Part shown: piece by piece, positions 3,785-40,502 of the stretch
Numbering within the stretch: position 1 is the first letter of the stretch
Layout: every line of letters starts with the position of its first letter
NCBI RefSeq assembly: GCF_000350525.1
Contig: NZ_AOCN01000015.1
Span: 62,001 to 126,000 of the forward strand
Source of the DNA: Leucobacter salsicius M1-8
Lineage (GTDB): Bacteria; Actinomycetota; Actinomycetes; Actinomycetales; Microbacteriaceae
Reading direction: 5' to 3'
Length of the DNA: 64,000 bases
The notes under the pieces: model-generated
Told to the model about the DNA's origin: nothing
Databases searched by the model: none
What the model saw: only the letters and a program-made list of their open reading frames with translations
Translations under genes and position numbers: made by a program

Positions 3785-3821
3785 AAACAAAATGAAACCA
3801 AAAATTTTGTTTCGTTTTGTT
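3785..3821. repeat. 37-bp palindromic repeat, copy 2 (upstream of fic)
   Basis: Identical to 2366-2402 and in the same orientation. It starts about 20 bp upstream of the fic start codon, where a promoter or operator would sit. The flanking bases differ from those of copy 1, so the identity ends sharply at both edges. Confidence 0.9.
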
Positions 3822-3906
3822 CGAGTTTGGGATCGGCTTGAGGGGTGGGGTGGCGGCTCCCGGTCCATGGGTGTGTGGGGCTGGCGGCTCACAGCATTTT
3901 GGCCTA

Positions 3907-3917
3907 TTGTCATATCA
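3907..3917 (+). promoter_or_regulatory. TTGTCATATCA motif upstream of the 3973 operon
   Basis: TTGTCATATCA lies 66 bp before the GTG start of the TIM-barrel gene. Close relatives TTGTCCTATC occur at 17048-17057 and TTGTCCTATCA at 19110-19120, also ahead of sugar-catabolic genes. It may be a -35 element or a binding site; the role is not known. Confidence 0.35.
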
Positions 3918-3972
3918 AAGGTGCGACCACAGGGGCCGTGCCAGAGAAAGCGCGAACGATGGAGTTTGAATC

Positions 3973-4899: not shown

Positions 4900-4919
4900 C
4901 AACTTTCAAAGGACACACC

Positions 4920-24449: not shown

Positions 24450-24496
24450 TTGACGTGGCAGGCCACATGTGCTTACAATTTGGACCGGTCCAAATT
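24450..24496 (+). promoter_or_regulatory. Promoter with operator AATTTGGACCGGTCCAAATT
   Basis: TTGACG (24450-24455), an 18-bp spacer and TACAAT (24474-24479) form the promoter. The perfect 20-bp palindrome 24477-24496 overlaps the end of the -10 and the start region, a classic repression layout. The same arrangement recurs at 34117-34160. Confidence 0.88.
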
Positions 24497-24539: not shown

Positions 24540-25994
24540 ATGAGCAATCACGGCACGCACGACTACGGCAGCTTCGGCCTCCTCATCGGAGGAGAGTGGC
24601 GCGAATCCGCCACCAATACCCGCCGTGAGGTGCGCTCACCGTTCGACGGCCGCGCCGTCGGCGAGGTCGCTCTTGCCAGTGAGGCCGACGTCGAAGCCGC
24701 ACTCACCGCCGCTGAGCACGGGGCCGCCGTCTGGCGCCGCACTCCGGCCCATGAGCGTGCCGCGATCCTGCAGCGCGCAGCGAACCTTGCCGACGAACGT
24801 GCCGACCGCATTGGCGCCACGATCTCCGCAGAGAACGGCAAACCGCTCGCCGAAGCGCTCGGGGAAGCGCGCCGCTCGGGTGCCATCATCCGGCTTGCCG
24901 CGCAGGAGGGCACCCAGCTTTACGGTGACTCACTGCCGCTTGACGCTAACCCCGGCACCGGCCAAGACAAGGTCGGCTTTACCCTGCGCCAGCCCGTGGG
25001 CATCGTCGTCGCGATCACCCCCTTCAACTACCCGGCCCTGCTCGTGCTGCACAAGCTCGCCCCGGCGCTCGCCGCCGGCAACGCCATCATTCTGAAGCCC
25101 GCGGGCGCCACGCCGCTTACCGCGCTTGCACTCGCGCAGCTGTTCATCGAGGCCGGCCTCCCCGAGGGTGTGCTCTCGGTGATCACCGGATCCGGTGGCA
25201 CGATCGGCGATGCGCTCGTGAGCGACCCCCGGGTGCGCAAAATCTCATTCACCGGATCAACCGGCGTGGGCGAACGGATCGCCCGGCTCGCAGGCATCAA
25301 GAAGCTCTCGCTCGAGCTCGGGGCCTCCTCGCCGACCCTGATCCTGCCCGGCGCGGATCTCGACAAGGCCGCCGCTGCGGTCGCCGCCGGCGGCTACGTG
25401 AACGGCGGGCAGGTCTGCATTTCGGTGCAGCGCGTGATTGTGCACCGCGATGTCGAACGCGACTTCCTCGACGCCCTCGTGCCCAGGGTTGAGGCGATTC
25501 GCATGGGCGATCCCTTCGCCGAGGGTACGACGCTCGGCCCGCTCATCACCGAGCGTGAGGCGGATCGCGTCGAGCGCAGCATTACCCAGGCCGTGAAGGA
25601 GGGGTCGCGGCTGCTCACGGGTGGGGTGCGTGATGGTGGATTCGTGTCACCCGCCATCGTGGCCGGCGTCGACACCCGCCAAGCGCTGGCGCAGGAAGAG
25701 CTCTTCGGCCCCGCCGTCGCCGTCACCGCCGTCGACTCGTTCGATGCCGCGATCGACGCGGCAAACGGCACCCCCTATGGCCTCGCGGCCGGCGTCTTCG
25801 GCGGCACGCTCGCCGAGGGGATTCGCGCAATGCGAGAGATCGACGCGGGCAGCGTGCACCTCGGGTGGACGCCGCTGTGGCGCGCCGACCTGATGCCCTA
25901 CGGCGGCTTCAAAGCCAGCGGCTACGGCAAGGAGGGCGTGCGCTCCACGGTCGAGGAGATGACCGAGGTGAAGACAGTGATCCTGCACAGCTAG
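24540..25994 (+). CDS. NAD(P)-dependent aldehyde dehydrogenase
   Basis: A 484-aa ALDH-superfamily enzyme that oxidises an aldehyde to an acid. The catalytic Cys is C293 in GGQVCISVQRV and the general base is E259 in LSLELGASSP. TPFNYPALLVLHKLAPALAAGNAIILKPAGATPLTA gives the cofactor-binding lysine, and EELFGPAVAV is near the C-terminus. It lacks the features expected of CoA-acylating methylmalonate-semialdehyde dehydrogenase (IolA) and is closer to lactaldehyde, phosphonoacetaldehyde or non-phosphorylating GAPDH types. It is the first gene after the GGACCGGTCC operator and is followed after 53 bp by iolD. It may oxidise an aldehyde released by the adjacent aldolase. Confidence 0.9.
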   Translation: MSNHGTHDYGSFGLLIGGEWRESATNTRREVRSPFDGRAVGEVALASEADVEAALTAAEHGAAVWRRTPAHERAAILQRAANLADERADRIGATISAENGKPLAEALGEARRSGAIIRLAAQEGTQLYGDSLPLDANPGTGQDKVGFTLRQPVGIVVAITPFNYPALLVLHKLAPALAAGNAIILKPAGATPLTALALAQLFIEAGLPEGVLSVITGSGGTIGDALVSDPRVRKISFTGSTGVGERIARLAGIKKLSLELGASSPTLILPGADLDKAAAAVAAGGYVNGGQVCISVQRVIVHRDVERDFLDALVPRVEAIRMGDPFAEGTTLGPLITEREADRVERSITQAVKEGSRLLTGGVRDGGFVSPAIVAGVDTRQALAQEELFGPAVAVTAVDSFDAAIDAANGTPYGLAAGVFGGTLAEGIRAMREIDAGSVHLGWTPLWRADLMPYGGFKASGYGKEGVRSTVEEMTEVKTVILHS

Positions 25995-26047
25995 ACCGCC
26001 ACCCCCAGACACGACAAACGAACATCACCAGCAAAAGGAGCACAGCA

Positions 26048-27997
26048 ATGGTGCAAGGACTCTCGGGCAAGACCGTCAGACTGACGGTCTCCCAGGCGAT
26101 CGTGAAGTACACGGCCGCTCAGTACACGGTGGCCGACGGCGAGCGTCGCCGCTTCGTGCCCGCGGCACTCGGAATCTTTGGTCACGGCAATGTCGCCGGT
26201 CTCGGCCAGGCCTTCGCCGAGTACGCCGACAAACTGCCGTTCGTGCAGGGGCGCAACGAGCAGGCCATCGCCCACCTCGCCACGGGCTTCGCGAAGGCCG
26301 CGAAGCGCCGCCAGACCCTCGCGGTCACCGCGTCTGTTGGCCCGGGGGCTACCAACCTCGTGACGGCGGCCGCACTCGCAACCGTCAACCGGATCCCGCT
26401 GCTGCTGCTCCCCGGTGACACCTACGCTACGCGCCGCCAGGGTCCCGTGCTGCAGCAGATTGACCTGCCGGGCACGCCAGATGTCACCGTCAACGACGCT
26501 TTCCGGCCCATCTCGCGCTTCTTCGACCGCATCAACCGCCCCGAGCAGCTGCTCACCGCGCTGCCGCAGGCATTCCGCGTGCTCGCGAACCCTGAGGAGA
26601 CGGGCGCAGTCGTGCTCTCGCTGCCGCAGGACGTGCAGTCGCACGCCTACGACTTCCCCGTCGAGTTCTTCGACGAAAAGGACTGGGTGATCCGGCGCCG
26701 CGTGCCCGAACCCACCGAGATCGCAGAGATCGCGCGCCTACTGCAGGCTTCGAAGCGCCCGCTCATCATTGCGGGCGGCGGTGTTATCTACTCTGACGCG
26801 CAGGAGCGCCTCACCGAGCTCGGCCGCCGCACCGGTGTGCCGATTAGCGAGACCTTCGCGGGCAAGGGCGCGGTGACCGAGGATGGTCCGTTCCGCGTCG
26901 ACGGCATCGGCCTCGAGGGCTCGCCCGAGACGAACCGGCTCGCCGAGCGCGCCGACCTCGTGCTGCACATCGGTACCCGGCTCACCGACTTCGCGACCGC
27001 CTCGCAGTCCATCTTCCAGGGTGAGAACGTCAAGTTCGCGTCGATCAACATCGTCGAGCACGACGCCGTGAAGCAGGGCGCGTTCGCCGCGCTCGCCGAC
27101 GCCGGCCTCGCGCTCGCCGCGCTCACGACGGCGCTCGGCGACTACCGCGTCGAGGCGGCCTGGGCCGCAGACATCGAGACCGCGCGCACGACCTGGGCTC
27201 CGGTGAGGGCGCAGGCGCTTGATCCGGATCAGCTCTTCGACAAGGCCACCCGGCCCGAAGTGCCCGAGACTGACGCCATTCTCACGCAGGGCCAGCTCAT
27301 CGGCCTCATGCAGGAACACGCGCAGCCCGGCGACACGATCGTCGCTGCAGCCGGAGGACCTCCCGGCGACCTGCAGAAGGTGTGGGACGCGACGAACGGG
27401 CGCCACGCGCACCTCGAGTTTGGGTTCTCGTGCATGGGCTACGAACTGCCCGCCGCGATGGGTGTGCGCCTCGCCGATCCCGACCCGAGCCACCGCGTTA
27501 CCGCATTCATTGGCGACGGCACCTTCGTGATGGCCCCCACCGAGATCGTGACCGCGGCGCAGGAGCGCATCCCGTTCACCCTCGTGGTCTCCGAGAATCA
27601 CGGCTACCAGGTGATTCGGCGACTGCAGATGTGGCGCACGGGCGAGCACTTTGCCAACGAGTTCCGCTACCGCGAGGAGGGCGGCTCGCTCGCCGGCTCC
27701 GACGCTGGTCGCCTCGAGGGTGGCTACCTAGACATCGACTTGACCCAGATCGCGGCCGGCCTCGGCGCCGTCGTGCGCAAGCCCTACACCGCCGACGAGG
27801 TGCGCCAGGCACTCGCCGAGACGCGCGACGTGCAAGGCCCGGTCGTCATTGTTGTGCCCACCATTCCTCACGTGGACCTGCCCAGTTCAGAGGTGTGGTG
27901 GGACGTTTCTCCCGCCGAGGTGTCGCAAACGCCCGACACGCGTGTCGAACTTGCTGACTACCTCGAGGGCCGCGCAAACCAGCGGTGGCACGGATGA
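26048..27997 (+). CDS. iolD: IolD-type ThDP-dependent acylhydrolase, paralog 2
   Basis: A complete 649-aa enzyme. The start MVQGLSGKTVRLTVSQAIVKYTAAQYT fits IolD. RNEQAIAHLATGFAKA carries the ThDP-activating Glu, RPLIIAGGGVIYSDAQERL lies in the middle domain, and FIGDGTFVMAPTEIVTAAQERIPFTLVVSENHGYQVI is the Mg-ThDP motif. AAGGAG lies before the ATG at 26048. In inositol catabolism it cleaves the ring of trihydroxycyclohexanedione. It is translationally coupled (ATGA overlap) to an HpcH/HpaI aldolase gene, an unusual neighbour, and no IolB or IolC is present here. A GATCCGGATC copy at 27221 encodes LDPDQL. Confidence 0.92.
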   Translation: MVQGLSGKTVRLTVSQAIVKYTAAQYTVADGERRRFVPAALGIFGHGNVAGLGQAFAEYADKLPFVQGRNEQAIAHLATGFAKAAKRRQTLAVTASVGPGATNLVTAAALATVNRIPLLLLPGDTYATRRQGPVLQQIDLPGTPDVTVNDAFRPISRFFDRINRPEQLLTALPQAFRVLANPEETGAVVLSLPQDVQSHAYDFPVEFFDEKDWVIRRRVPEPTEIAEIARLLQASKRPLIIAGGGVIYSDAQERLTELGRRTGVPISETFAGKGAVTEDGPFRVDGIGLEGSPETNRLAERADLVLHIGTRLTDFATASQSIFQGENVKFASINIVEHDAVKQGAFAALADAGLALAALTTALGDYRVEAAWAADIETARTTWAPVRAQALDPDQLFDKATRPEVPETDAILTQGQLIGLMQEHAQPGDTIVAAAGGPPGDLQKVWDATNGRHAHLEFGFSCMGYELPAAMGVRLADPDPSHRVTAFIGDGTFVMAPTEIVTAAQERIPFTLVVSENHGYQVIRRLQMWRTGEHFANEFRYREEGGSLAGSDAGRLEGGYLDIDLTQIAAGLGAVVRKPYTADEVRQALAETRDVQGPVVIVVPTIPHVDLPSSEVWWDVSPAEVSQTPDTRVELADYLEGRANQRWHG

Positions 27998-28776
27998 GCG
28001 CGGGACCGCTCGCGCCCAACCGCGCGCTGCGCGCGCGGTTCCGTGCGGGCGAGCCCACGGTCGGCACCTTCTTGGGGCTCGGCTCGGTCGCAGCGGCCGA
28101 GGTGTGTGCGTCGACGGGCCTCGACTGGGTGCTCGCCGATCTCGAGCACGGCGGCGGAGACGAGGCCGAGGTCGGCGCGATTGTCGCGGCGGCCGGTGCC
28201 TACGGGACCGCGACCCTCGTGCGGGTCGAGCAGCCCGACCGCATTCGCGTCGGGCGTGTGCTTGACGCGGGGGCTGCGGGCATCATGCTTCCCAGAATCT
28301 CCAGCGCAGACGAGGCCGCTGCCGCGCTGCGGCACCGGCTCTACCCTCCCGAGGGTGACCGCGGCGTCGCGACCTATAACCGTGCAGCCCGCTGGGGTGG
28401 TGAGATGGCAGCACTCGACGCCGCAAACGACCGTGCTGTGGGCATCGTGCAGATCGAAACAGCCGGCGCGATGGATGACCTCGACGCGATCGCCGCGACT
28501 CCGGGTGCCGACGTGCTGTTCGTGGGCCCGCAAGATCTCAGCTACGCGCTGGGGGTGCCGCGCCAGTTCGATGCCCCCGCGTTTCAGGAGGCACTCGACC
28601 GGGTGGTCGCAGCCTGCCAGAAGCACGGGAAGGTTGCTGGCATCCTCACGAACGACCGTTCGGGCGCCGAGGCGTACCTCGCGCGCGGCTTCAAATTCAT
28701 CGCGATTGGGTCGGACGCAACGCTGCTCGCGGCGACCGTGCGCGCCGCGCTTCCGAGACTCGGGGGTGCATCGTGA
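27994..28776 (+). CDS. HpcH/HpaI-family class II aldolase
   Basis: A 260-aa metal-dependent aldolase that splits 2-keto-3-deoxy acids into pyruvate (or a related keto acid) and an aldehyde. Family hallmarks are GTFLGLGSVAAAEVCASTGLDWVLADLEHG at the N-terminus, GAAGIMLPRISSADEAAAAL, IVQIETAGAMDDLDAIAATPGADVLFVGPQDLSYALG (metal Glu and Asp), and GFKFIAIGSD at the C-terminus. It starts at ATG 27994, inside the iolD stop, and ends overlapping the next gene (GTGA), so the three are coupled. Beside an IolD and an aldehyde dehydrogenase it suggests direct aldol cleavage of a keto-deoxy sugar acid without kinase activation. Confidence 0.9.
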   Translation: MSAGPLAPNRALRARFRAGEPTVGTFLGLGSVAAAEVCASTGLDWVLADLEHGGGDEAEVGAIVAAAGAYGTATLVRVEQPDRIRVGRVLDAGAAGIMLPRISSADEAAAALRHRLYPPEGDRGVATYNRAARWGGEMAALDAANDRAVGIVQIETAGAMDDLDAIAATPGADVLFVGPQDLSYALGVPRQFDAPAFQEALDRVVAACQKHGKVAGILTNDRSGAEAYLARGFKFIAIGSDATLLAATVRAALPRLGGAS

Positions 28777-29696
28777 GTGAGGAACTCACCCCGGTCGTCG
28801 TGGGGCTCGGGCCCGTTGATCCGGCACTTGTTACGCCGTTCCTGGGGGAGGGAGTGCAGTTTGTGCGCGACCCATCAGCGGGTGATCTCGCGGTCGCGCA
28901 GGGCGCGATCGTGCGTGCAGCCTACGACGTCGATCGTGCGCTGCTCGATCGTATGCCCGCTCTGAGGGTCGTCGCGCGCACCGGAGTGGGGGTCGAACGC
29001 GTCGACGTCGCGGCCGCTCGAGAGCGAGGCATCGCGGTCGCGGTGACGCCGGGCAGCAACGCCCGCGCGGTCGCAGAGGGGGCGTTTGCGATGCTGCTCG
29101 CCCTCATCAAGCGCGTGCCCGAGTCGCATCGGTTTGTTGCGAATGGCACCTGGGGTATTGCTCCGGTACCAGTGCCTGGCGACGCGCACGGAACGACGCT
29201 CGCGGTCGTGGGATTTGGCCGGATCGGCCGTATCATCGCGGGGTTTGCGACGGCGTTTGGCATGCGGGTGATCGTGCATGACCCGTTTGTGCAGGCCGAG
29301 GAGTTCGAGAATGTTTCACTGGAGCAGGCGGTGGCACGGGCAGATGCGCTCACGCTGCACCTGCCTGGAGGCGATGGTGAGCTGCTACCGCGAGCGCTGC
29401 TGGCGTCGGCCCGGCCCGGTCTGGTGCTCGTGAACTGCGCTCGTGCCGAACTTGTCTCGACAGAAACGATAATCTGGGGCCTAGGGGCAGGGAGGCTCGC
29501 GGGAGTCGGGCTCGATGTGTTTGCGTCCGAGCCGATGCGTGACCACCCATTAGCGCACGATCCCCGAGTCATTCTGAGCCCGCACACCACCGGGCTCTCC
29601 CAGGCGGCACTGGCTGCCACGTTTCAGATGGCGGCGGAGGCCGTGACCGAAACGCTAGCCGGTCGTTACCCAACCTTTACCGTAAAGGTCGCCTGA
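28773..29696 (+). CDS. D-2-hydroxyacid dehydrogenase (NAD-dependent)
   Basis: A 307-aa member of the D-isomer-specific 2-hydroxyacid dehydrogenase family. The NAD-binding motif is LAVVGFGRIGRIIAGFATAFG. The catalytic Arg is in VNCARAELVS, the acidic residue in LDVFASEP, and His in LSPHTTGLSQAAL. VVARTGVGVERVDVAAARERGIAVAVTPGSNARAVAEGAFAMLLAL is the usual substrate-domain signature. It reduces or oxidises glyoxylate, hydroxypyruvate or sugar-derived 2-keto acids. The GTG start overlaps the aldolase stop by four bases, so it acts in the same pathway, probably on an aldolase product. Substrate unassigned. Confidence 0.88.
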   Translation: MSEELTPVVVGLGPVDPALVTPFLGEGVQFVRDPSAGDLAVAQGAIVRAAYDVDRALLDRMPALRVVARTGVGVERVDVAAARERGIAVAVTPGSNARAVAEGAFAMLLALIKRVPESHRFVANGTWGIAPVPVPGDAHGTTLAVVGFGRIGRIIAGFATAFGMRVIVHDPFVQAEEFENVSLEQAVARADALTLHLPGGDGELLPRALLASARPGLVLVNCARAELVSTETIIWGLGAGRLAGVGLDVFASEPMRDHPLAHDPRVILSPHTTGLSQAALAATFQMAAEAVTETLAGRYPTFTVKVA

Positions 29697-29705
29697 CGCG
29701 AAAAC

Positions 29706-29741
29706 TTGCGGTACAGTACAAAACAGAGCGAATGCTTTGTA
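29706..29741 (+). promoter_or_regulatory. Possible promoter/operator ahead of the ABC importer
   Basis: The 82-bp gap before the binding-protein gene is AT-rich and holds TTGCGG (29706-29711) and an inverted repeat TACAAA-13-TTTGTA (29717-29722, 29736-29741), with AGCGAATGCT centred between the arms. This suggests a separate regulated promoter for the importer; no -10 is convincing. Confidence 0.4.
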
Positions 29742-29778
29742 ACGACATTAGTTCAATTAACACGATGGAGTGAAGACG

Positions 29779-30774
29779 ATGAAGTCACAAATGAAGCGGT
29801 GGAGTCGTGTCGGCATTGCCGGCATTGCAGCAACCGGAGCCCTGCTCCTCGCGGCGTGCGGTAGCCCCGCAGGTGCGGGTGGCGGCGCGGCTGGCGGCGG
29901 CGGAGACGACGCAGCACCCAAGACTGAAGAGCTGAAGGTTGCGCTGATCACTCACGCAGCCCCCGGCGATACGTTCTGGGACACGATCCGTGCGGGCGCC
30001 GAGAACTCGGCAGGCCTGAACAACATCGATCTGCTCTACACCTCCGACCCCGATGGTGCGCGCCAGGCGCAGCTCGTGCAGCAGGCCGTAGACCAGAAGG
30101 TCGACGGCATCGTCGTCACGCTGGCCAAGGCCGACGCCATGTCGGGTGAGGTCAAGAAGGCCGTCGAAGCAGGCATCCCCGTATTCAGCATTAATGCTGG
30201 TGAAAATGACTTCAAGTCCATGGGCATCCTCGCCCACTTCGGTCAGAACGAGTTCGTCGCCGGTCAGGCTGCCGCTGAGCAGTTCAACGAGGCTGGCAAG
30301 AAGAAGGTCATCTGCGTGATCCAGGAGCAGGGCCACGTTGGCCTTGAGTCGCGCTGCGAGGGTCTCGCCGACAAGCTCGAGGGCACCTCTGAGGTTCTGT
30401 ACGTGCAGGGCACCGACATGACGAACGTCGCATCGACCATCACGTCGAAGCTGCAGACCAACAAGGACATCGACGCGGTACTCACGCTCGGCGCTCCCTT
30501 CGCTATGACCGCAGTTGACGCGATCAAGGATGCGGGCAGCACCGCCACGCTGGCGACCACCGACCTGAACCCCGACGTGTACGCGGCGATCAAGGATGGC
30601 ACGATGCTCTTCGGTATTGACCAGCAGCCGTTCATGCAGGGCTACGAGTCGGTCGAAGCTGTGCGTCTCTACAACGAGGGCGGCTACGTGCTCGGCGGCG
30701 GCCAGGCTGTGCTCACCGGACCCGCTGTTGTAAACGCTGCCAACGCCGAGAGCGTTGCTTCGCAGTTCAACTAA
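29779..30774 (+). CDS. Sugar ABC transporter substrate-binding lipoprotein
   Basis: A 331-aa periplasmic-binding-protein-like protein of the ribose/inositol (type I) group, anchored as a lipoprotein: basic start MKSQMKRWSRV, hydrophobic segment, then lipobox LLLAACG and a Gly/Ala-rich linker. The ligand-binding part has LKVALITHAAPGDTFWDTIRAGAENSAGLNNIDLLYTSDPDGARQAQLVQQAVDQKVDGIVVTLAKADAM, IPVFSINAGENDFKSMGILAHFGQNEFVAGQAA and MLFGIDQQPFMQGYESVEAVRLY. The ATG at 29779 has GGAG nine bases upstream. It is followed by permease and ATPase genes. A cyclitol or sugar ligand is expected from the linked catabolic genes. Confidence 0.92.
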   Translation: MKSQMKRWSRVGIAGIAATGALLLAACGSPAGAGGGAAGGGGDDAAPKTEELKVALITHAAPGDTFWDTIRAGAENSAGLNNIDLLYTSDPDGARQAQLVQQAVDQKVDGIVVTLAKADAMSGEVKKAVEAGIPVFSINAGENDFKSMGILAHFGQNEFVAGQAAAEQFNEAGKKKVICVIQEQGHVGLESRCEGLADKLEGTSEVLYVQGTDMTNVASTITSKLQTNKDIDAVLTLGAPFAMTAVDAIKDAGSTATLATTDLNPDVYAAIKDGTMLFGIDQQPFMQGYESVEAVRLYNEGGYVLGGGQAVLTGPAVVNAANAESVASQFN

Positions 30775-30796
30775 CACTGCGAGAGAGTTGAAATCT

Positions 30797-31843
30797 ATGT
30801 CTACAGCTACAGCGCCAAAGTTTGACGAACGTATGGCCACTGGCAACCTCTTCACGCGCTTCTTCTCGAAGCCTGAAGCGGGAGCTAGTGCGGCCGCACT
30901 CGTCCTGGCGATCATGTTTGCGGTCGTCGCACCGCAGTTCACCCAACCCGAGTCGATCGCGACGATCCTTTACGGTGCCTCCACCGTGGGCATCATGGCG
31001 GTCGGGGTATCGCTCCTGATGATCGGCGGCGAGGTCGACCTGTCGGCCGGCGTCGGTGTCATCTCATCAGCGCTGTCTGCCTCGTTGTTTATGTATTGGT
31101 TCGGCGGCAACGTATGGGTCGGTGCCATTATCGGCCTCGTATTCTCGTTGCTCGTTGGATTCATCAACGGCTGGCTGTTGACCAAGACAAAGCTCTCGAG
31201 CTTTATCATCACCCTGGCCACGTTCTTCATGCTGACGGGCCTCAACCTGGGTGTTACGCGATTGGTCACGGGCGGGGTCGCGGCCCCGTCGATCGCGAAT
31301 TGGCCCGGCTTTGAATCAGCCGCAGCCGTGTTCGCGTCGGATATTCCGGTTTTCGGGGTGAAGGTGAAGATCACGGTCTTCTACTGGATCCTGCTCGTGG
31401 CCATCGCAACCTGGATCCTCAAGCGCACCCGCGCTGGTAACTGGATCTTCGCCAGCGGCGGCGCTCCCGACGCGGCACGGGCAGTGGGTGTGCCCGTCGT
31501 GCGTACGAAGATTGCGCTTTACATGGGCGTCGGCTTCTGCGCCTGGCTGCTCGGCATGCACCAGCTGTTTGCCTTCAAGACGGTGCAGTCGGGTGAGGGC
31601 ATCGGCAACGAGTTCCTCTACATCATCGCTGCCGTCGTCGGTGGCTGCCTCATGACCGGTGGTTACGGTTCGGCGATCGGCGGCGCCATCGGTGCCCTTA
31701 TCTACGGCATGGCGCTTAAGGGTGTCGTGTACGCCGAGTGGAACCCTGACTGGCTCAAGTTCTTCCTCGGTGCCATGCTCCTCGGAGCGACCGTGCTCAA
31801 CTTCACGCTGCAGCGACGCGCAGCGCAGGGAGGTAAAAAGTGA
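30797..31843 (+). CDS. Sugar ABC transporter permease (RbsC family)
   Basis: A 348-aa inner membrane permease with about nine to ten hydrophobic segments. Family regions are [29 protein letters not shown] (the GGxDLSxG-type motif), [32 protein letters not shown], and [29 protein letters not shown] with the EAA-like loop contacting the ATPase. It starts at ATG 30797 (GAGAGAG upstream). The stop overlaps the ATPase start by four bases. It transports the ligand of the 29779 binding protein. Confidence 0.92.
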
Positions 31844-32757
31844 ACGCCACAACCGCAACGGCAGCGCCGCTCGTAGAGCTGCGCGAGACCGAGAAGCGCT
31901 ACGGCAACATCATCGCCCTGCGCGATGTCAGCCTCAAGGTGAGCCCCGGCGAGGTGATGTGCGTGCTCGGTGATAACGGTGCCGGCAAGTCCACCCTCAT
32001 CAAGATCATTGCCGGGTTGCACCAGCACACCGGCGGAGAGTTCCTCATCGAGGGCAACGAGGTCAAGCTTGACTCGCCCCGCGAGGCGCTCAACCTCGGC
32101 ATCGCGACGGTCTACCAGGACCTCGCCGTTGCCCCGCTGATGCCGGTGTGGCGCAACTTCTTCCTCGGCTCCGAGAAGACGATTGGCCGGGGCCCGTTTA
32201 AGCGCCTCGACATTGCCTTCATGCGTGAGACGGCCAAGAAGGAACTGCTCGACATGGGCATCGACCTTCGCGACGTCGATCAGCCGATCGGCACCCTCTC
32301 GGGTGGTGAGCGCCAGTGTGTTGCCATCGCCCGCGCCGTCTACTTCGGTGCCAAGGTGCTGATCCTCGACGAGCCGACCGCCGCCCTCGGTGTCAAGCAG
32401 TCGGGCGTCGTGCTGCGCTACATCATCCAGGCGCGTGACCGCGGTCTCGGTGTGGTGTTCATCACGCACAACCCGCACCACGCCTACCCCGTGGGTGACC
32501 GGTTCCTGCTGCTCAAGCGTGGCCAGAGCATCGGCTATCACGAGAAGGCAGACATCTCACTTGAAGAGCTCACCGGCCTCATGGCCGGCGGCGCTGAACT
32601 CGAGCAGCTCGTGCATGAGCTGCGTCAGGTCGGCACCAGCACCGATACGGTGCGCACGATCCGCGACGAAATCGAGGAGGACGAGGCCGCTGGAGTGGGC
32701 CGCGTTACCGTGACCGAGGTCGTCAACGTTGTGATTCCAGAAGAGGACGAGCGCTAG
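31840..32757 (+). CDS. Sugar ABC transporter ATPase with a single nucleotide-binding domain
   Basis: A 305-aa ATPase: Walker [10 protein letters not shown] (residues 44-52), Q-loop VYQDLAV, signature LSGGERQ, Walker [11 protein letters not shown], and the switch His in [11 protein letters not shown]. Importers of the ribose type usually have a fused double ATPase of about 500 aa; this one has one domain, as in FrcA-type fructose importers, so it should act as a homodimer. After the ATPase core a C-terminal tail of about 55 residues ([49 protein letters not shown]) is acidic and of unknown role. The GTG start overlaps the permease stop. A clear terminator follows. Confidence 0.9.
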
Positions 32758-32777
32758 CCCGCGACGTCTGAAACAAG

Positions 32778-32806
32778 AGGGGCGTCCTGTACAGGGCGCC
32801 CCTTTT
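32778..32806 (+). terminator. Intrinsic terminator after the ABC operon
   Basis: The stem AGGGGCGTCCTG / CAGGGCGCCCCT (one G-U pair) with a short loop is followed by TTTT. It ends the 24540-32757 gene series. Confidence 0.88.
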
Positions 32807-32884
32807 GCGTGCTGGTGGGGCGAGTACCGCGCCACCAGCACAAGCCCCGCAACCGATGCTGGCCGCCAGTCCTAGGAGTCTCGA

Positions 32885-34060: not shown

Positions 34061-34116
34061 CCCGGGCGCCTCGATCTGTGCGCGAAGCGGCGCGCCGGAT
34101 CACATCCCTCGGTGGC

Positions 34117-34160
34117 TTGACACCCAGGTCTTTATGTACTTACAATTTGGACCGGTCCAT
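34117..34160 (+). promoter_or_regulatory. Second promoter with the TGGACCGGTCCA operator
   Basis: TTGACA (34117-34122), an 18-bp spacer and TACAAT (34141-34146) are followed by TTTGGACCGGTCCATTT. CTTACAATTTGGACCGGTCC is identical to the site at 24472-24491; the last arm diverges (CATTT here against CAAATT). Spacing between -35, -10 and operator is the same at both promoters. Confidence 0.88.
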
Positions 34161-34225
34161 TTCTTTCGGGAGTGGGCCACGCAACGGCGCACTTGGTGCC
34201 TGACACCTCGACGAAAGATACGACT

Positions 34226-35464
34226 ATGCAGACGAACGAAGACGGCACCATTACGATCGGCGTCGGCCTCATCAGCGTGGGCTGGATGGGCCAGCTGCAC
34301 AGCCGGGCTTACTCGAACTTGCGCTACGCATACCCCGATCTCGGCATCAAAACTCGCCTCGTGCACGCCGCCGACACCGCACCCGCCCGCGCGCAGGAGG
34401 CCGTCGAGGTGCTCGGCTATGAGCGCGCCTCGGCCGATTACCACGAGGTCTTGAACGACCCCGAGGTCGACGTCGTCTCGATCTGCGCCCCTAACTTCCT
34501 GCACGCTGAGATCGCGGTCGCCGCGGCCAACGCCGGCAAGCACTTCTGGGTTGAAAAGCCCGTGGGCCGCGGCGAAGATGAGACCCGCGCCGTCTCCGAG
34601 GCCGCCGCTGCAGCTGGCGTTGTCAGCACCATCGGCTTCAACTACCGTCACGCGCCCGCGATCGAGCACCTCAAGCAGCTCATCGCCGACGGCGACCTCG
34701 GCCGCATCACCAACGTGCGCGGCCACATGTTTGCCGATTACTCGGCCGATCCCCGCGGTGCACTTTCCTGGCGCTTCATTCGCAATCTTGCAGGCTCGGG
34801 CGTACTCGGCGACCTGATGGGACACCTCGTCGACCTCGTGCAGTACAGCCTGGGCCCCATCGCCGAGGTCAGCGCCGTCACCTCCACCGTCTACACCGAG
34901 CGCCCCGAGCTACCCATGGGTACCGGCACCCACTTCGCCCTGATCGAGGACGGCGAGATGAAGCCCGTCGAGAACGAGGACTACGCTGCCATGCTCGTGC
35001 GGCTTTCGGATGACGCGGCCGCTCCCGGCATCGTGGGCACGCTCGAGGCTTCGCGCGTCGCCGTCGGCCCGCGCGCCAGCTACGGCATCGAGATCTACGG
35101 CACCAACGGCTCGGCCCACTGGGACTTTGAACGCATGAACGAACTGCACATCTCGAGCGGCCTCGGCGCCGCGCACCAGGGCTACACCCGCGTCATGGCG
35201 AGCCCGGGCATGGGCGACTTCGGTCGCTTCCAGCCCGGCGCCGGCACCTCAATGGGCTACGACGACCTCAAGGTCATCGAGGCGAAGAAGTTCCTGGAGG
35301 CTGTCGCGGGCCGCACCGCGGTCAACTCAAACATTCAGGACGCGCTGTCTGCTGCACAGGTGATCTCGGCGGCCGAGCGCTCGGCGGCGGGCCGCAGCTG
35401 GGAAGCCAGCGCACCCGTAGCTGGCACGACGTCGGCCACGTCGGCAACCGCGGCCAACGCCTAA
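34226..35464 (+). CDS. Long Gfo/Idh/MocA oxidoreductase (412 aa)
   Basis: A dehydrogenase of the long subgroup that includes levoglucosan dehydrogenase-like enzymes: VGLISVGWMGQLHSRAYSNLRYAYPDLG, HFWVEKPVGRGEDETRAV (catalytic Lys), GFNYRHAPAIEHLKQLIADGDLGRITNVRGHMFADYSADPRGALSWRF, and GSGVLGDLMGHLVDLVQYSLGPI with the catalytic Asp/His pair. The Ala/Thr-rich C-terminal tail (PVAGTTSATSATAANA) looks disordered. It starts at ATG 34226, which fits the Rossmann start. It is the first gene after the second GGACCGGTCC promoter and is followed by iolE. It probably oxidises a glycoside or cyclitol. Confidence 0.87.
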   Translation: MQTNEDGTITIGVGLISVGWMGQLHSRAYSNLRYAYPDLGIKTRLVHAADTAPARAQEAVEVLGYERASADYHEVLNDPEVDVVSICAPNFLHAEIAVAAANAGKHFWVEKPVGRGEDETRAVSEAAAAAGVVSTIGFNYRHAPAIEHLKQLIADGDLGRITNVRGHMFADYSADPRGALSWRFIRNLAGSGVLGDLMGHLVDLVQYSLGPIAEVSAVTSTVYTERPELPMGTGTHFALIEDGEMKPVENEDYAAMLVRLSDDAAAPGIVGTLEASRVAVGPRASYGIEIYGTNGSAHWDFERMNELHISSGLGAAHQGYTRVMASPGMGDFGRFQPGAGTSMGYDDLKVIEAKKFLEAVAGRTAVNSNIQDALSAAQVISAAERSAAGRSWEASAPVAGTTSATSATAANA

Positions 35465-35505
35465 GCCTCACGACCTCACCAACCACGACAAAGGAGTCAC
35501 ACCCA

Positions 35506-36390
35506 ATGAACGCACGCATCGCTTCCGCCCCCATCAGCTGGGGCGTCATCGAGGTCCCCGACTGGGGCGTCCAGCTCGACCGCGACCGGGTGCTCGGTGA
35601 AATGGTGTCGCTCGGCATCACCGCGACCGAGTTCGGCCCCGAGGGCTTCCTGCCCGACGCACCTGCCGATCGCGCGCGCGTGCTCGCCGAGGCCGGCCTG
35701 AGTGCTGTCGGCGGCTTCTACCCCGCGGTGCTGCACAAGTCTGCAGAGCCCGGATCGGCCGATGATCCGCTCCCCGCGATCGAGCGCGAGCTTGAGGCCT
35801 ACGTTGCTGCGGGGGCCTCGACCCTCGTGCTCGCGGCTGCCACGGGTGCCGAGGGTTACGACGCGGCACCCGTGCTGAGCGATGCCGAATGGGGCACCTT
35901 GCTCGCGAACCTCGACCGTATTCAGGGCGCAGCTGCGGCAGTGGGTGTCGTTGCGACACTGCACCCGCACCTGGGCACCCTGGTAGAGACCCCTGAGGCG
36001 GTAGCCCGCGTGATCGAGGGCTCCTCGATTGGGCTGTGCCTCGACACGGGCCACTTCACGCTGGGCGGCGGCGACCCCGTCGACCTCGTCAAGCAGCACG
36101 CAGATCGCATTGTGCACGCGCACCTCAAGGATGTCAGCGTCGCGGCGGCCGAGCGCGTGCGCGCAGGCGAGATGGATTACCGCGAGGGCGTACGACAGGG
36201 CATGTACCAGGCGCTGGGCGAGGGCGATGCCTGCGTCGGCGAGATCGTCGAGGCGCTCGTGGGCGCCGGCTACGACGGCTGGTATGTGCTTGAGCAGGAC
36301 ACCGTCGTCGAGAACGAAGAGGATGCGGCCCGTGCCCTCGAGAACGCGCGCAAGAGCGTCGCGTTCATTCGTGCGGCGGTTGCCAAGTGA
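35506..36390 (+). CDS. iolE: Inosose dehydratase-like TIM barrel (IolE type)
   Basis: A 294-aa protein starting MNARIASAPISWGVIEVPDWGVQLDRDRVLGEM, the typical IolE opening. Metal-site regions are TEFGPEGFLP, VVATLHPHLGTLVETPEAVARVIEG, SIGLCLDTGHFTLGGGDPVDLVK (Asp/His), VHAHLKDVSV and GWYVLEQDTVV (Glu). IolE dehydrates 2-keto-myo-inositol to the trihydroxycyclohexanedione used by IolD. AAGGAGTC lies before the ATG. Its stop overlaps the next GTG start by four bases. Under the same operator as iolD paralog 2, it supplies the expected preceding step. Confidence 0.87.
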   Translation: MNARIASAPISWGVIEVPDWGVQLDRDRVLGEMVSLGITATEFGPEGFLPDAPADRARVLAEAGLSAVGGFYPAVLHKSAEPGSADDPLPAIERELEAYVAAGASTLVLAAATGAEGYDAAPVLSDAEWGTLLANLDRIQGAAAAVGVVATLHPHLGTLVETPEAVARVIEGSSIGLCLDTGHFTLGGGDPVDLVKQHADRIVHAHLKDVSVAAAERVRAGEMDYREGVRQGMYQALGEGDACVGEIVEALVGAGYDGWYVLEQDTVVENEEDAARALENARKSVAFIRAAVAK

Positions 36391-37442
36391 CCGCGGCGCA
36401 GGCCAGCGCAGCCGCGCAGCCAGGCCAGGAAGCTCCGCTGCGCATCGGTATGCTGGGTGCCTCGCGCATCGCCGAGCTCGCCGTCATCGACGCGAGTGAG
36501 CACACGGGCGATGCGCGCGCGGCCGTCGCCGCCCGCGACCCCGAGCGCGCACGGGCCTACGCTGCCGAGCACGGCTTCGAAGGCACTCGCGACGACTACG
36601 CCGAGCTCGTCGCCGACGACTCTCTCGATCTGATCTACATCGGCCTGCCCAACGGGCTCCACGCCGAGTGGACCGCGCAAGCGCTCGAGGCGGGCCGAGC
36701 GGTGCTCGTTGAGAAGCCATTCGCAGCCAACCTCGAGGAGTTCGACCGGGCGGCGAAGCGACTCGAAACGTCGCAGGGCTGGGCCTGGGAGGCGTTTCAC
36801 TACGCCGACCACCCGCTCATCGCGCGCGTCCTCGAACTGCTGCAGGGGGGCGAGATCGGCGAACTGCGCGAGGTCACCGTGCACATGCTCATGCCCGATC
36901 CCGGCGCCACCGACCCGCGCTGGAACTTCGACCTTGCCGGCGGCACCATGATGGACCTCGGCTGCTACGCGCTCCACGCGCTGCTCACGATCGGCGACGC
37001 GCTGGGTCACAAGGTGACCCTCGACGGTGCGAAGGCTACGACCTACGCGGCAGACGAGCGGGTCGACGCGAGTGTCGAGGCCGAGCTCACGCTCGGCGAC
37101 GCTGCAGTCACGCTGCGCACGAGCATGGAGCACGACGTCTTCGACTTCAGCCTCGAGCTCACGGGTACGAAGGGTTTGCTGTTCTCGCCCAACTTCGTGA
37201 AGCCGCAGGAGGACGACCGACTCATCGTCCGCACGACCGCGGGTGAAAGCGTCTTCGAGCGCGAGGAACGCGTCGGCACCCAGTCGTCGTACGTGTACCA
37301 GCTCGAGCGTATTCGCCGTGAGCTGCGCTCAGGCGTTCGCAACAGCGAAGACCTGGCACGCTCGCGCAACACGATGTCACTGATCGACGACATCTACACG
37401 GCCACCGGGCTGCCGCTTCGCCCCGGCCGCCTGAACGACTGA
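36387..37442 (+). CDS. Gfo/Idh/MocA oxidoreductase (351 aa)
   Basis: A dehydrogenase with an extended N-terminus before the Rossmann fold (LRIGMLGASRIAELAVIDASEHTGDARAAVAARDPERARAYAAEHGF). LVEKPFAANLEEFDRA gives the catalytic Lys and WEAFHYADHPLIARVLELLQGGEIGEL the substrate region. NFDLAGGTMMDLGCYALHALLTIG replaces the usual D-x-x-H pattern with a D-x-x-C-Y-x-x-H arrangement, as in dihydrodiol-dehydrogenase-like members. Translational coupling to iolE is seen (GTGA overlap). It probably acts on a ketone or hydroxyl of the cyclitol intermediate; the exact substrate is unknown. Confidence 0.85.
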   Translation: MTAAQASAAAQPGQEAPLRIGMLGASRIAELAVIDASEHTGDARAAVAARDPERARAYAAEHGFEGTRDDYAELVADDSLDLIYIGLPNGLHAEWTAQALEAGRAVLVEKPFAANLEEFDRAAKRLETSQGWAWEAFHYADHPLIARVLELLQGGEIGELREVTVHMLMPDPGATDPRWNFDLAGGTMMDLGCYALHALLTIGDALGHKVTLDGAKATTYAADERVDASVEAELTLGDAAVTLRTSMEHDVFDFSLELTGTKGLLFSPNFVKPQEDDRLIVRTTAGESVFEREERVGTQSSYVYQLERIRRELRSGVRNSEDLARSRNTMSLIDDIYTATGLPLRPGRLND

Positions 37443-37539
37443 ATGATTGAACGGCTGAGCTCTATACCGCCGAACAGCACATCGCTGACTCGTGGATCAC
37501 TCAATGATGGATAACTGACCGAAAATCGGGGAACACACC

Positions 37540-38346
37540 ATGCAGGCACTCATGCAGGGCAAGATCGTACTCATCACGGGCGGCACGCAGGGCCTCGGCC
37601 TCGCGATCGCCGAGGCCGCCGCCCGCGAGGGCGCGACCGGCGTCGCGATCGTGGGCCGCAGCTCGGCGAAGGCCGAGATCGCGCTTGAGGCGATTCGTGC
37701 GGCGGGATCCGGATCGCACCAATCCGCACCTGAGGCCGTTGCGATCATCGCCGACCTGAGCGTCGACGGCGAAGCCGAGCGCGCGGTCGCAGAGACCGTC
37801 GCGCGGTTCGGCCGCGTCGACAGCCTCGTGAACGCGGCGGGCGCGACGAGCCGCGGCACGCTGCTCGACACGAGCCGCGAGCTGCTGAACGAGCACCTCA
37901 CACTTAACCTCGTGGTGCCGTTCATGACCATGCAGGGGGCCGTGGCCGACATGCAAGGGCGCGGTGCGCCGGGCACGATCGTCAATATCATCACGATGGC
38001 GATGCACGGTGGGCAGCCGTACCTCGCGCCCTACGTCGCGTCGAAGGCGGGCCTTGCGGGCCTGACGAAGAACGCCGCGTTTGCGCATCGGTTCGACCGG
38101 ATCCGCATTAACGGGCTCAACATCGGATGGACTGCGACGCCCGGCGAGGCGCAAACGCAGAAGGGTTTTCACGGTGCCGCCGATAACTGGCTCGATGCAG
38201 CCTCGGCCGCGCAACCGATGGGCAAGCTCGGGCAGCCCGACGAGATTGCCGACGCGGTCGTGTTCTTGCTGAGTGAGCGCAGCGGGGTTGTCACCGGATC
38301 GATCATCGACTGGGACCAGAACGTCCCGGGCGCATACGACCAGTAA
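37540..38346 (+). CDS. Short-chain dehydrogenase/reductase with Thr at the catalytic Ser position
   Basis: A 268-aa SDR. Cofactor motif TGGTQGLG (residues 13-20), NAAGA at 98-102, YxxxK as Y165-VAS-K169. The catalytic Ser normally lies 13 residues before the Tyr; here that residue is T152 (NIITMAMHGG), an unusual but possibly functional substitution. The C-terminal SGVVTGSIIDWDQNVPGAYDQ resembles the SDR ending V-T-G, followed by a family-specific IIDWDQ. It lies in the operon after a 97-bp gap. It probably oxidises or reduces a cyclitol or sugar. A GATCCGGATC copy at 37706 encodes GSGSH within a surface loop. Confidence 0.86.
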   Translation: MQALMQGKIVLITGGTQGLGLAIAEAAAREGATGVAIVGRSSAKAEIALEAIRAAGSGSHQSAPEAVAIIADLSVDGEAERAVAETVARFGRVDSLVNAAGATSRGTLLDTSRELLNEHLTLNLVVPFMTMQGAVADMQGRGAPGTIVNIITMAMHGGQPYLAPYVASKAGLAGLTKNAAFAHRFDRIRINGLNIGWTATPGEAQTQKGFHGAADNWLDAASAAQPMGKLGQPDEIADAVVFLLSERSGVVTGSIIDWDQNVPGAYDQ

Positions 38347-38397
38347 CTTGTGTCATTGGGCAGCAGTGACATCGAAATCGGCGGCGTGAGGAGCCTC

Positions 38398-39444
38398 ATG
38401 AGAATCGGCATCATCGGTACGGGCGTCATGGGTGCGTTCCACGTCAAGCTCCTGCACGAGCAGGTGAGCGGTGCGACCGTTGCGGCAGTGGCCGACCCGG
38501 ATCTCGGGCGTGCGACCGCCGCGGTGGCTGGCATCCCCGGCGCCGTGGCATTCGCCGACCCGCGCCAGCTCATCGAGTGCACCGACGTCGACGCCGTGCT
38601 CATCGCGTCACCAGATTTCTTGCACGCCGAGCAGACGCTCGCCTGCATCGCGGCGGGCAAGCCGGCGCTGTGCGAGAAGCCGCTGTCGTACTCCGTGGAG
38701 GACGCCGAGCGCGTCACCGCAGCTCACCGCGAGGTCGTCGGTGATGGCGTTCCGCTTGTGCATCAGGGGTTCATGCGGCGCTTTGATCCGGGCTATGTCG
38801 AGCAGAAGCGTGTCGTGGACTCGGGCGTGCATGGCCGTCCCGTGATGGTGCACTCCGTGGGGCGCGGTGTAGAAACCGGCCCCGGTGCAACCGACGAATC
38901 CGTGATCTTCAACTCGGCCATTCACGACCTCGACGTCGTGCCCTGGCTGCTCGGATCGCCCGTCACCGAGGTGAGCTGGCACGCCCCCGAGACGCCAAGC
39001 TCGACCGGCGGCGGCCTGCGCGACCCCTTCTTCCTGTTGCTGCGCACCGCCGACGGCGCACTTTCGACCGTCGAGAACTCGCTCAATGCGCGTTACGGCT
39101 ACGACATGCGCTCGGAGGTGCTGTGCGAGACCGGCGCCGTCGCGATCACTGAGCCCCAGCGCATCGTGACCTCGTCGACGCTCGCCGCCACGGCAGACCT
39201 GCCCGAGGACTTTCGGCCACGCTTCGCGGAGGCCTATCGGCTCGAACTGCAGGAGTGGGTGACCGCGCTGAACGAGGGCCGGGCGCCCACACTCGCGACC
39301 GTCGAGGACGGCGCGCAGGCGACACGGGTTGCCGCTGCCGCCGTCGCGTCGATGCGCTCGGGCGGCGCATTTGTGCGAGTGGCTGCGCCCGGCGCCGGTA
39401 TCAATGCCGGTGCTGGCACCGCTTCTGTGGTTGGTGTTCGATGA
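38398..39444 (+). CDS. iolG: Gfo/Idh/MocA oxidoreductase, myo-inositol 2-dehydrogenase type
   Basis: A 348-aa IolG-type dehydrogenase: MRIGIIGTGVMGAFHVKLLHEQVSGATVAAVADPD, CEKPLSYSVEDAERV (catalytic Lys), HQGFMRRFDPGYVEQKRVVDSGVHGRPVMVHSVGRG and NSAIHDLDVVPWLLG with the Asp/His catalytic elements. The subgroup is shared with the 4920 protein. ATG 38398 is preferred because GAGGAG lies seven bases upstream; an earlier in-frame GTG or TTG would add 16 residues. Its stop overlaps the next ATG (ATGA). Together with IolE and IolD under one operator type it would give the first three steps of inositol catabolism. Confidence 0.87.
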   Translation: MRIGIIGTGVMGAFHVKLLHEQVSGATVAAVADPDLGRATAAVAGIPGAVAFADPRQLIECTDVDAVLIASPDFLHAEQTLACIAAGKPALCEKPLSYSVEDAERVTAAHREVVGDGVPLVHQGFMRRFDPGYVEQKRVVDSGVHGRPVMVHSVGRGVETGPGATDESVIFNSAIHDLDVVPWLLGSPVTEVSWHAPETPSSTGGGLRDPFFLLLRTADGALSTVENSLNARYGYDMRSEVLCETGAVAITEPQRIVTSSTLAATADLPEDFRPRFAEAYRLELQEWVTALNEGRAPTLATVEDGAQATRVAAAAVASMRSGGAFVRVAAPGAGINAGAGTASVVGVR

Positions 39445-40502
39445 CCGCCCCCGCGCTGCGCCCGACCGGCCTGCCCGCGCCGCAGGTTCCCGATCCAATG
39501 CACGGTCCCGCCCTGCGCTGGGCCGTCCTCGGCACCGGATGGATCGCCGATCGCTTCGTCGAGGCGCTGCAGCAGAACACGAACCAGCGGGTGGTCGCGG
39601 TGGGCTCGCGCACGCTGGACCGCGCCGCCGAGTTCGCGAGCGCCCGCGGCATCGCCGAGGCCTACGGCTCCTACGAAGAGCTCGTGGCCGCAGGCGTCAA
39701 CGTGGTCTATGTCGCCACGGGGCACCTCGACCATCTGGCCCACGCGACCCTCGCGCTCGAGGCGGGCAAACCCGTGCTCGTGGAGAAGCCAATGACGCCG
39801 CGCCTGGCCGACACCCGCGCGATCGTCGCGCTCGCCCGCGAGAAGGGGCTGTTCGCGATGGAGGCGGTGTGGACCCTCGCGCTGCCGCGCTACTCAGTGG
39901 TCCGCCAGGTGATCGAGTCGGGCATGCTCGGAGAGGTTCACGAGGTGCACGCCAACCTGGGCGAGCGGCTCATCGATCACCACCGCGCGATGGACCCCGC
40001 GCAGGGCGGCGGGGCCATGAACGACATCGGCTCGTACACGATGATGTTCGCCAATGAGATGCTGCCCGGCCTCACCGTACAAGCGGCCAGGGGTACGCGG
40101 GGACCGCGATCCGGATCAGACACCGCGGGTACCGAGGCCGCGATCGCCCAGTTCCACGCCCTGCTCGGCAACGACGCGGGGCAGATTGCGACCGTGAGCG
40201 CATCAATGTTTGGCGACACCCCCACGACCGCGTATATCGCGGGTTCGGAGGCGACGCTCGCGCTTGAGGCGCCGTTCTACCAGCCAGGACCGGTCACCGT
40301 GCGGTTTCACGACGGCGAGGTGTTGCGGTACAACGAGCCCGCGCTCGCCCACTCCCAACTGTTCTGGGAGGCGCTCGAGGTGGCGCGGTGCATCGACGCC
40401 GGGCTCACGGAGTCACCGCTGCGGCCGCTGGACCGCACGCTCGAGACGGTCGCGCTCATGGAGCAGGCCCGCGAACTCATGGGTGACTCGCTGGCGCACT
40501 AG
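39441..40502 (+). CDS. Gfo/Idh/MocA oxidoreductase (dihydrodiol-dehydrogenase-like)
   Basis: A 353-aa dehydrogenase of the shorter, dihydrodiol-dehydrogenase-like subgroup: LRWAVLGTGWIADRFVEALQQNTNQRVVAVGSRTLDRAAEFA, VLVEKPMTPRLADTRAI (catalytic Lys), EAVWTLALPRYSVVRQVIESGMLGEVHEVHANLGERL, and GGGAMNDIGSYTMMFANEML, where the D-x-G-x-Y pattern replaces the Asp/His pair. It is the last gene of the operon and starts inside the preceding stop codon (ATGA). Its stop overlaps the convergent amidase gene by four bases. A GATCCGGATC copy at 40108 encodes PRSGSDT. Substrate unknown. Confidence 0.85.
   Translation: MTAPALRPTGLPAPQVPDPMHGPALRWAVLGTGWIADRFVEALQQNTNQRVVAVGSRTLDRAAEFASARGIAEAYGSYEELVAAGVNVVYVATGHLDHLAHATLALEAGKPVLVEKPMTPRLADTRAIVALAREKGLFAMEAVWTLALPRYSVVRQVIESGMLGEVHEVHANLGERLIDHHRAMDPAQGGGAMNDIGSYTMMFANEMLPGLTVQAARGTRGPRSGSDTAGTEAAIAQFHALLGNDAGQIATVSASMFGDTPTTAYIAGSEATLALEAPFYQPGPVTVRFHDGEVLRYNEPALAHSQLFWEALEVARCIDAGLTESPLRPLDRTLETVALMEQARELMGDSLAH

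Follow-up and report, generated by a model that had tools for sequence, protein, structure and literature searches.

How is an inositol-type cyclitol degraded after ring opening by IolD, if the genes that accompany iolD encode dehydrogenases and an aldolase? This question is raised by a gene module of Leucobacter salsicius M1-8, found in a stretch of 64,000 nucleotides (hereafter the window; contig C15, positions 62001-126000), in which a member of the IolD (trihydroxycyclohexanedione hydrolase) family is encoded together with an aldehyde dehydrogenase (ALDH), a class II aldolase of the HpcH/HpaI family and a D-2-hydroxyacid dehydrogenase (2HADH). Our answer, to which we assign a probability of about 0.4, is that the module may constitute a second, separately regulated cyclitol branch beside a classical iol operon, in which the IolD product would be oxidized and not phosphorylated. 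The gene set, the gene overlaps, a shared palindrome, a separate IolD clade, conservation of the module and the joint absence of the kinase IolC and a Cgl0159-type aldolase from many relatives are read from the sequences themselves, and the chemistry of the branch is deduced from them.

The original prediction for this locus held that IolB, IolC and IolJ were nowhere visible and that the module acts in their place. The apparent absence is an artefact of the window edge: a classical cluster comprising iolC, the gene of the Cgl0159-type aldolase, iolA, iolB, iolD, iolE and iolG straddles the left border, with iolC, iolA, iolB, the aldolase gene and a GntR-type regulator gene directly to the left of it, and with its right part in the window (1..5936, forward strand), where the first IolD, at the very start, had been overlooked. 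In this genome iolB, iolC, iolA and iolD are all above the curated cut-offs and clustered, and two IolDs exceed theirs. An organism lacking IolB and IolC is ruled out, both being over the cut-off next to the window, and a module acting instead of the classical enzymes is a wrong description of this bacterium. The prediction had proposed a genome search for iolB, iolC and iolJ and had regarded their occurrence elsewhere, together with a requirement for the same substrates, as evidence against itself; the search returned iolB, iolC and a putative aldolase in the IolJ position next door, which corresponds to the first half of that statement. The putative aldolase is the Cgl0159-type protein, which we take to carry out the IolJ step; it also matches PDB entry 3fok, an uncharacterized protein, and none of the curated IolJ models matched it (no search was made for a Bacillus-type IolJ). 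This assignment is drawn from cluster position and prior knowledge, and is supported by the location of the gene between iolC and iolA and by its co-presence or co-absence with IolC in 28 of 28 genomes that carry the module.

The gene calls of ALDH, of the second IolD (IolD2), of the aldolase and of 2HADH made originally were borne out, with IolD2 above the curated NCBIfam cut-off for IolD (Table 1); it shares 44.1% identity over 585 positions with the classical IolD encoded in this genome. ALDH, IolD2, aldolase and 2HADH form one coupled run (24540-29696), in which IolD2 and the aldolase share an ATGA overlap (27994-27997, the aldolase probably starting at the ATG at 27994) and the aldolase and 2HADH share a GTGA overlap (28773-28776). 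These overlaps fit the translational coupling suggested earlier for the three genes. Residues C293 and E259 of ALDH, presumably catalytic, and R224, E253 and H271 of 2HADH, to which we ascribe their usual roles in this family, are conserved in at least 95% of 29 alignment rows. The aldolase belongs to PF03328 both by its fold family and by its catalytic and metal residues: H55, R80, E158 and D184, which were placed through a by-eye alignment to HpaI and whose roles follow the cited part of PMC8560999, are conserved in all 29 rows but for one exception at most. Another four residues, R86, R88, Y131 and N132, are typical of the clade and present in at most 3 of 14 distant aldolases. The protein falls under the equivalog cut-offs of HpaI (184.4 vs 368.8 bits) and GarL (161.9 vs 406.75 bits). 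Protein family scans found no IolC kinase among the module genes (24540-36390), and the single over-cut-off IolC of the genome is that of the classical cluster.

The module is apparently under its own control, apart from the classical iol cluster, as judged from a proposed operator. Exact TTGGACCGGTCCA occurs at 24480, before ALDH, and at 34147, before GfoA (a dehydrogenase of the Gfo/Idh/MocA family) and IolE2 (an IolE-like dehydratase), each time directly after a TACAAT box, and a search of the 3.19 Mb genome with one mismatch allowed returned those two places only and none at the classical cluster. The earlier idea of one operator over iolG, iolE and iolD thus holds for the ALDH and GfoA–IolE2 transcription units, and no TTGGACCGGTCCA was found before the short-chain dehydrogenase/reductase (SDR) and IolG-like genes at 37540-40502. 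Exact TTGGACCGGTCCA is present in 5 of 90 fetched loci, namely in all four from Leucobacter and in one from Kocuria. It precedes ALDH in all five. It also precedes GfoA in the Kocuria locus and in every Leucobacter locus but L019, where no GfoA is seen, and three Leucobacter loci have it before the transporter as well; in the other 23 module loci the exact motif was not found. A LacI-family regulator, encoded divergently from ALDH, is a candidate repressor of the module, linked to the operator by position. The direct-repeat listing (largest 20 of at least 60 families) was of no help for the module.

To determine how widely this arrangement is conserved, we collected 45 loci by a scan with the aldolase. 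In 28 of them, all actinobacterial, an aldolase of 52-82% identity lies beside an IolD; the remaining 17 contain distant aldolases (27-40% identity) and no IolD. All 28 module loci encode ALDH and 2HADH, 26 encode GfoA and 22 an IolE-like protein; the sequences of L035, L037 and L040 stop short of the absent gene or genes. The module is sparse: a separate, evenly drawn sample of 394 genomes of the class yielded the aldolase (E<=1e-50) in just four, the window genome among them. In a tree of 43 IolDs, which omits 5 of 46 matches, the 29 module IolDs lie on one side of a branch with support of 100/100, and the other 14 include the classical IolD of the window genome. The closest relatives of the window IolD2 are from Leucobacter (82% identity at best). 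Two records (L034 and L038), titled as metagenome-assembled genomes (MAGs) of Bifidobacterium breve, group in this tree with a Candidatus Nanopelagicales record and are probably mislabelled.

All 28 module genomes were searched for IolD, IolB, IolC and the Cgl0159-type aldolase. One IolD is found in 15 genomes and two or more in 13; IolC (E<=1e-70) is found in 15, of which 14 are above the cut-off, and the Cgl0159-type aldolase (E<=1e-10) in the same 15. At these thresholds, where weaker PfkB kinases are not listed, 13 of the 28 genomes have neither IolC nor the Cgl0159-type aldolase, and in all 13 the sole IolD is the module IolD2. An MMSDH/IolA-family gene accompanies this in 11 of the 13, in two of them at contig ends, although this family also serves valine breakdown. 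Assembly gaps are an unlikely cause, as a direct junction of the flanking genes is seen at the site of loss in 11 of the 13 loci; L032 and L036 are uninformative here, their contigs beginning within ALDH or shortly before it. The gene order in L030 is iolB, iolA, Cgl0159-type gene, iolC, a gene of an RmlD-like reductase, LacI and the module. In L025 and L028 (the contig of the latter begins inside iolA) iolA adjoins the RmlD-like gene, with the Cgl0159-type gene and iolC missing, and in nine further loci (L033, L034, L035, L038, L039, L040, L045, L056 and L060) iolB adjoins it. The IolD gene tree places L025 and L028 together with L030 (99/96) and away from the remaining eleven IolC-less relatives, and therefore two losses are the simplest reading: on that tree, IolC and the neighbouring aldolase were probably lost twice. 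In these relatives, the role of IolC seems to be taken over by a conserved branch that follows IolD. The kinase-free branch envisaged originally thus gains support from the relatives, from a separate IolD clade and from a separate proposed operator.

Several dehydrogenases are encoded near iolB in IolC-less loci. In L034 (L034:3-3609) these are an FMN-dependent dehydrogenase, zinc alcohol dehydrogenases and a Gfo/Idh/MocA protein, in convergent orientation to iolB, and parts of this set, not all parts everywhere, recur in L025, L033, L035, L038, L039, L040, L045, L056 and L060. Two of the alcohol dehydrogenases near iolB in L034 match the IolM model below its cut-off (199.3 and 185.3 vs 450 bits). 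These genes could take part in the pathway.

What chemistry might the branch carry out? An inositol-type cyclitol would enter via the ABC transporter, be oxidized to an inosose by GfoA/IolG-type enzymes, dehydrated by IolE2 and ring-opened by IolD2 to a 5-deoxy-hexuronate; here we rely on general background on the chemistry of 5-deoxyglucuronate. ALDH would convert the aldehyde of this compound to a carboxylate (oxidation at C1), and a dehydrogenase would turn the carbon beside the new carboxylate (C2) into a ketone, giving 2-oxo-3,4-dihydroxyadipate, which in organisms that keep IolB would also be reachable from 2-deoxy-5-ketogluconate by C6 oxidation. Cleavage of 2-oxo-3,4-dihydroxyadipate between C3 and C4 by the HpcH/HpaI aldolase would yield malonate semialdehyde and hydroxypyruvate; IolA, which normally acts on malonate semialdehyde, would convert it to acetyl-CoA. 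2HADH would either form the 2-oxo acid or reduce hydroxypyruvate to glycerate. The scheme employs every core enzyme of the module. In its favour, the binding protein of the module resembles a myo-inositol binder and GfoA a scyllo-inositol dehydrogenase, and the window genome has a PF02595 glycerate kinase and no PF02733 DhaK. According to the cited parts of the literature, a 2-oxo acid is bound to the metal of HpcH/HpaI aldolases via its carboxylate and oxo group (PMC8560999), these enzymes cut the C3-C4 bond of 4-hydroxy-2-oxo acids, and hydroxypyruvate was accepted instead of pyruvate by 19 of 571 screened class II aldolases (PMC8560999, PMC7610986). The chemistry proposed originally, i.e. 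direct cleavage of an unphosphorylated keto-deoxy acid followed by oxidation, is possible; given that enzymes of the HpcH/HpaI family work on 2-oxo acids, we consider it more probable that oxidation comes first. That small-genome actinobacteria rely solely on such an oxidative, kinase-free route through 2-oxo-3,4-dihydroxyadipate, with Leucobacter-like organisms keeping both routes under separate control, is a tentative proposal, which we regard as less likely than not.

A number of observations weigh against an oxidative branch or against parts of it. All 13 IolC-less genomes are MAGs of 0.8-1.4 Mb (apparently freshwater, to judge from isolate names). IolB is found in 28 of 28 module genomes, in 26 above the cut-off, and its conserved blocks, with residue roles that we assume from prior knowledge, are intact in 10 aligned IolC-less relatives; this retention counts against direct oxidation, because oxidation of 5-deoxyglucuronate itself would not need IolB. 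It would be accommodated either by the route via 2-deoxy-5-ketogluconate and C6 oxidation, or by non-oxidative cleavage, or by another job of IolB. In G400 and G408, two genomes whose only IolD is IolD2, IolC and the Cgl0159-type aldolase are nonetheless retained; IolD2 can thus probably also feed the classical route. For the glycerate expected from the scheme, the PF02595 glycerate kinase was found in none of the 13 IolC-less genomes (other glycerate kinase families were not searched), while it occurs in 11 of 29 genomes (the 28 and the window genome), including that of the window. Finally, the raw counts of operator matches (two forward and two reverse, at the two palindromic places) resemble those of a control with the pattern written backwards (two and one), and for this reason the weight of the operator comes from its position and conservation.

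These points leave room for other explanations. The module might serve another cyclitol, such as an O-methyl inositol, an inosamine or a rarer stereoisomer, whose ring-opened product IolB and IolC cannot process, and then the chemistry after IolD may differ. Points in favour are the module's own proposed operator and additional dehydrogenases, given that a classical iol cluster exists in this genome, and the divergence of IolD2 and IolE2 from the classical pair (44% and 31% identity, respectively); the sugar-binding protein of the module also matches the rhizopine binding protein model, albeit below the cut-off (190.4 vs 420 bits). The closest match of that same protein is, however, the myo-inositol binder 4ru1, called a verified myo-inositol transporter in the cited part of PMC10747050. 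Moreover, 13 relatives have IolD2 as their sole IolD and keep IolB, and a true IolG (365 vs 355 bits) lies beside the module in L034, the only locus scanned for it. The features of these relatives suggest ordinary inositol as the substrate at least there. We regard another substrate as unlikely, though it deserves to be kept in mind.

IolD2 may instead be a mere paralogue that feeds the classical route, with another sugar kinase and aldolase (e.g. a fructose-bisphosphate-aldolase-like IolJ) having taken over in the 13 relatives, and with ALDH, HpcH aldolase and 2HADH unrelated to it. This is in line with G400 and G408, where IolD2, as the sole IolD, occurs together with IolC, the Cgl0159-type aldolase and IolB, and at the IolC threshold of E<=1e-70 weaker PfkB kinases would not show, nor was Bacillus-type IolJ searched for. 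Nevertheless, ALDH, aldolase and 2HADH accompany IolD2 in 28 of 28 loci, and the 13 scanned proteins from the L034 locus included no PfkB kinase. We consider the paralogue explanation improbable. Still a little less credit is given to a non-oxidative variant, in which IolB would form 2-deoxy-5-ketogluconate and the HpcH aldolase would cut it unphosphorylated to malonate semialdehyde and dihydroxyacetone, with ALDH and 2HADH acting on the products. The presence of IolB throughout the 28 genomes, including the 13 that lack IolC and the Cgl0159-type aldolase, would thereby be explained, but 2-deoxy-5-ketogluconate has no 2-oxo acid group of the kind that HpcH/HpaI enzymes bind (cited part of PMC8560999), and ALDH and 2HADH would be left unexplained. 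A kinase for dihydroxyacetone (DhaK, PF02733) is present in 9 of 29 genomes, in just two of the 13 IolC-less ones, and was not found in the window genome.

Compared with known systems, the proposed oxidative branch resembles the classical iol pathway (IolG, IolE, IolD, IolB, IolC, IolJ, IolA) in having an IolD above the cut-off and IolE- and Gfo/Idh/MocA-type enzymes, and the module lies beside iolB in several relatives and beside iolA in three. It differs in containing ALDH, HpcH aldolase and 2HADH instead of a kinase, in its own proposed operator and in occurring, in 13 of 28 relatives, where IolC and the Cgl0159-type aldolase are both missing. In the glucarate/galactarate route a hexuronate-type acid is oxidized to a diacid, cut by GarL of the HpcH/HpaI family, and the oxo product is reduced; the same logic of oxidation, cleavage and reduction is proposed here, but the module aldolase is far under the GarL cut-off, the precursor would come from IolD, and no sugar-acid dehydratase was found among the scanned module proteins. 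The Thermotoga inositol route (IolM/IolN/IolO) is non-classical and likewise independent of IolC, but is not known to include the IolD ring opening that the module has. With rhizopine (moc) catabolism the module shares a CUT2 binding protein and Gfo/Idh/MocA dehydrogenases, and differs in that the binding protein remains below the cut-off given above. Assignments to rhizopine, levoglucosan (dehydrogenase model, 290.4 vs 650 bits), HpaI or GarL were all rejected on their equivalog cut-offs.

Among the open-licence papers listed in our literature searches we saw no description of this gene set or of a kinase-free route after IolD, and the module may be an undescribed way to degrade inositol-like sugars. 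A large survey counts an iol cluster when at least three of four genes are present, and attributes missing genes possibly to incomplete genomes, assembly errors or frameshifts (cited parts of PMC9430895); should the module prove functional as a branch, part of these gaps would be real biology. A new aldolase specificity, for a 3,4-dihydroxy-2-oxo acid, and a changed view of the ecology of small-genome, apparently freshwater actinobacteria would also follow, if the proposal is true. The 13 IolC-less genomes make the kinase-free question directly testable.

Table 1. Genes and sites of the module and of the classical iol cluster. Coordinates refer to the window unless prefixed with a contig or locus; bit scores are given against model cut-offs.
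Feature	Position	Strand	Evidence
iolC	C15:57420-58334 (left of window)		393.2 vs 300 bits
Cgl0159-type aldolase-like protein, IolJ position	L002:16292-17251 (left of window)		PF22649, 423.6 vs 27 bits
iolA	L002:17103-18881 (left of window)		657.9 vs 448.5 bits
iolB	C15:61036-61818 (left of window)		243.9 vs 205 bits
Classical iolD (iolD1)	C15:61923-63836 (crosses edge, to about 1851 in window)	+	817.7 vs 715 bits
iolE-like	3973-4899	+	below cut-off
iolG-like	4920-5936	+	below cut-off
LacI-family regulator	23337..24386	-	LacI helix-turn-helix and periplasmic-binding domains; divergent from ALDH
Perfect palindrome ATTTGGACCGGTCCAAAT, proposed operator of ALDH–IolD2 operon	24478..24495	.	directly 3' of TACAAT
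ALDH	24540..25994	+	top NCBIfam match lactaldehyde dehydrogenase, 460 vs 650
IolD2	26048..27997	+	TIGR04377, 761.4 vs 715 bits
HpcH/HpaI class II aldolase	27985..28776	+	PF03328, 112.7 vs 25 bits
2HADH (phosphoglycerate dehydrogenase/glyoxylate reductase-like)	28773..29696	+	domain and family matches
CUT2 sugar/cyclitol-binding protein	29770..30774	+	276.9 bits to PDB 4ru1
ABC permease (CUT2 type)	30755..31843	+	domain matches
ABC ATPase	31840..32757	+	domain matches
Second proposed-operator copy, before GfoA–IolE2	34147..34160	.	exact TTGGACCGGTCCA
GfoA (Gfo/Idh/MocA dehydrogenase)	34172..35464	+	closest PDB 6a3f (putative dehydrogenase), scyllo-inositol dehydrogenase 5ya8
IolE2 (IolE-like dehydratase)	35506..36390	+	TIGR04379, 151.8 vs 290 bits; PDB IolE matches 9zmu, 3cny
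Further Gfo/Idh/MocA dehydrogenases (36387; 38350, IolG-like; 39255) and SDR (37540)	36387..40502	+	module association by position

The genes originally called iolE (35506) and iolG (38398) are relatives of these families below the equivalog cut-offs: the former is IolE2, and the latter corresponds to the IolG-like protein at 38350-39444, which scores 209.2 against a cut-off of 355 and 221.4 against one of 540. Relatives of the SDR at 37540 are also present in Leucobacter L017, Streptomyces L020 and Kocuria L023.

Other parts of the window and of the related loci deserve a brief mention. A further inositol dehydrogenase gene is located at 19130-20176, its product (370.6 vs 355 bits) being the only one above the IolG cut-off among the window proteins scanned, and genes of LacI-type regulators lie near it at 17187 and 21144. 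In the intergenic region at 20998-21051 there is a perfect inverted repeat of 20 bases, GATGGGACAGTTTGTACGCT, enclosing a loop of 14 bases; it does not recur in the window when up to 3 mismatches are allowed, and could be a terminator or a small remnant of a mobile element. The cyclitol region is followed (42100-45900) by an ordinary zinc/manganese-type ABC transporter with AztC-, AztA- and AztB-like components, all under the cut-off. In the related loci, the RmlD-like NAD-dependent reductase is conserved directly before the module LacI gene in L025, L028, L030, L033-L035, L038-L040, L045, L056 and L060, and in L026 it is encoded elsewhere nearby (L026:14947-15912).

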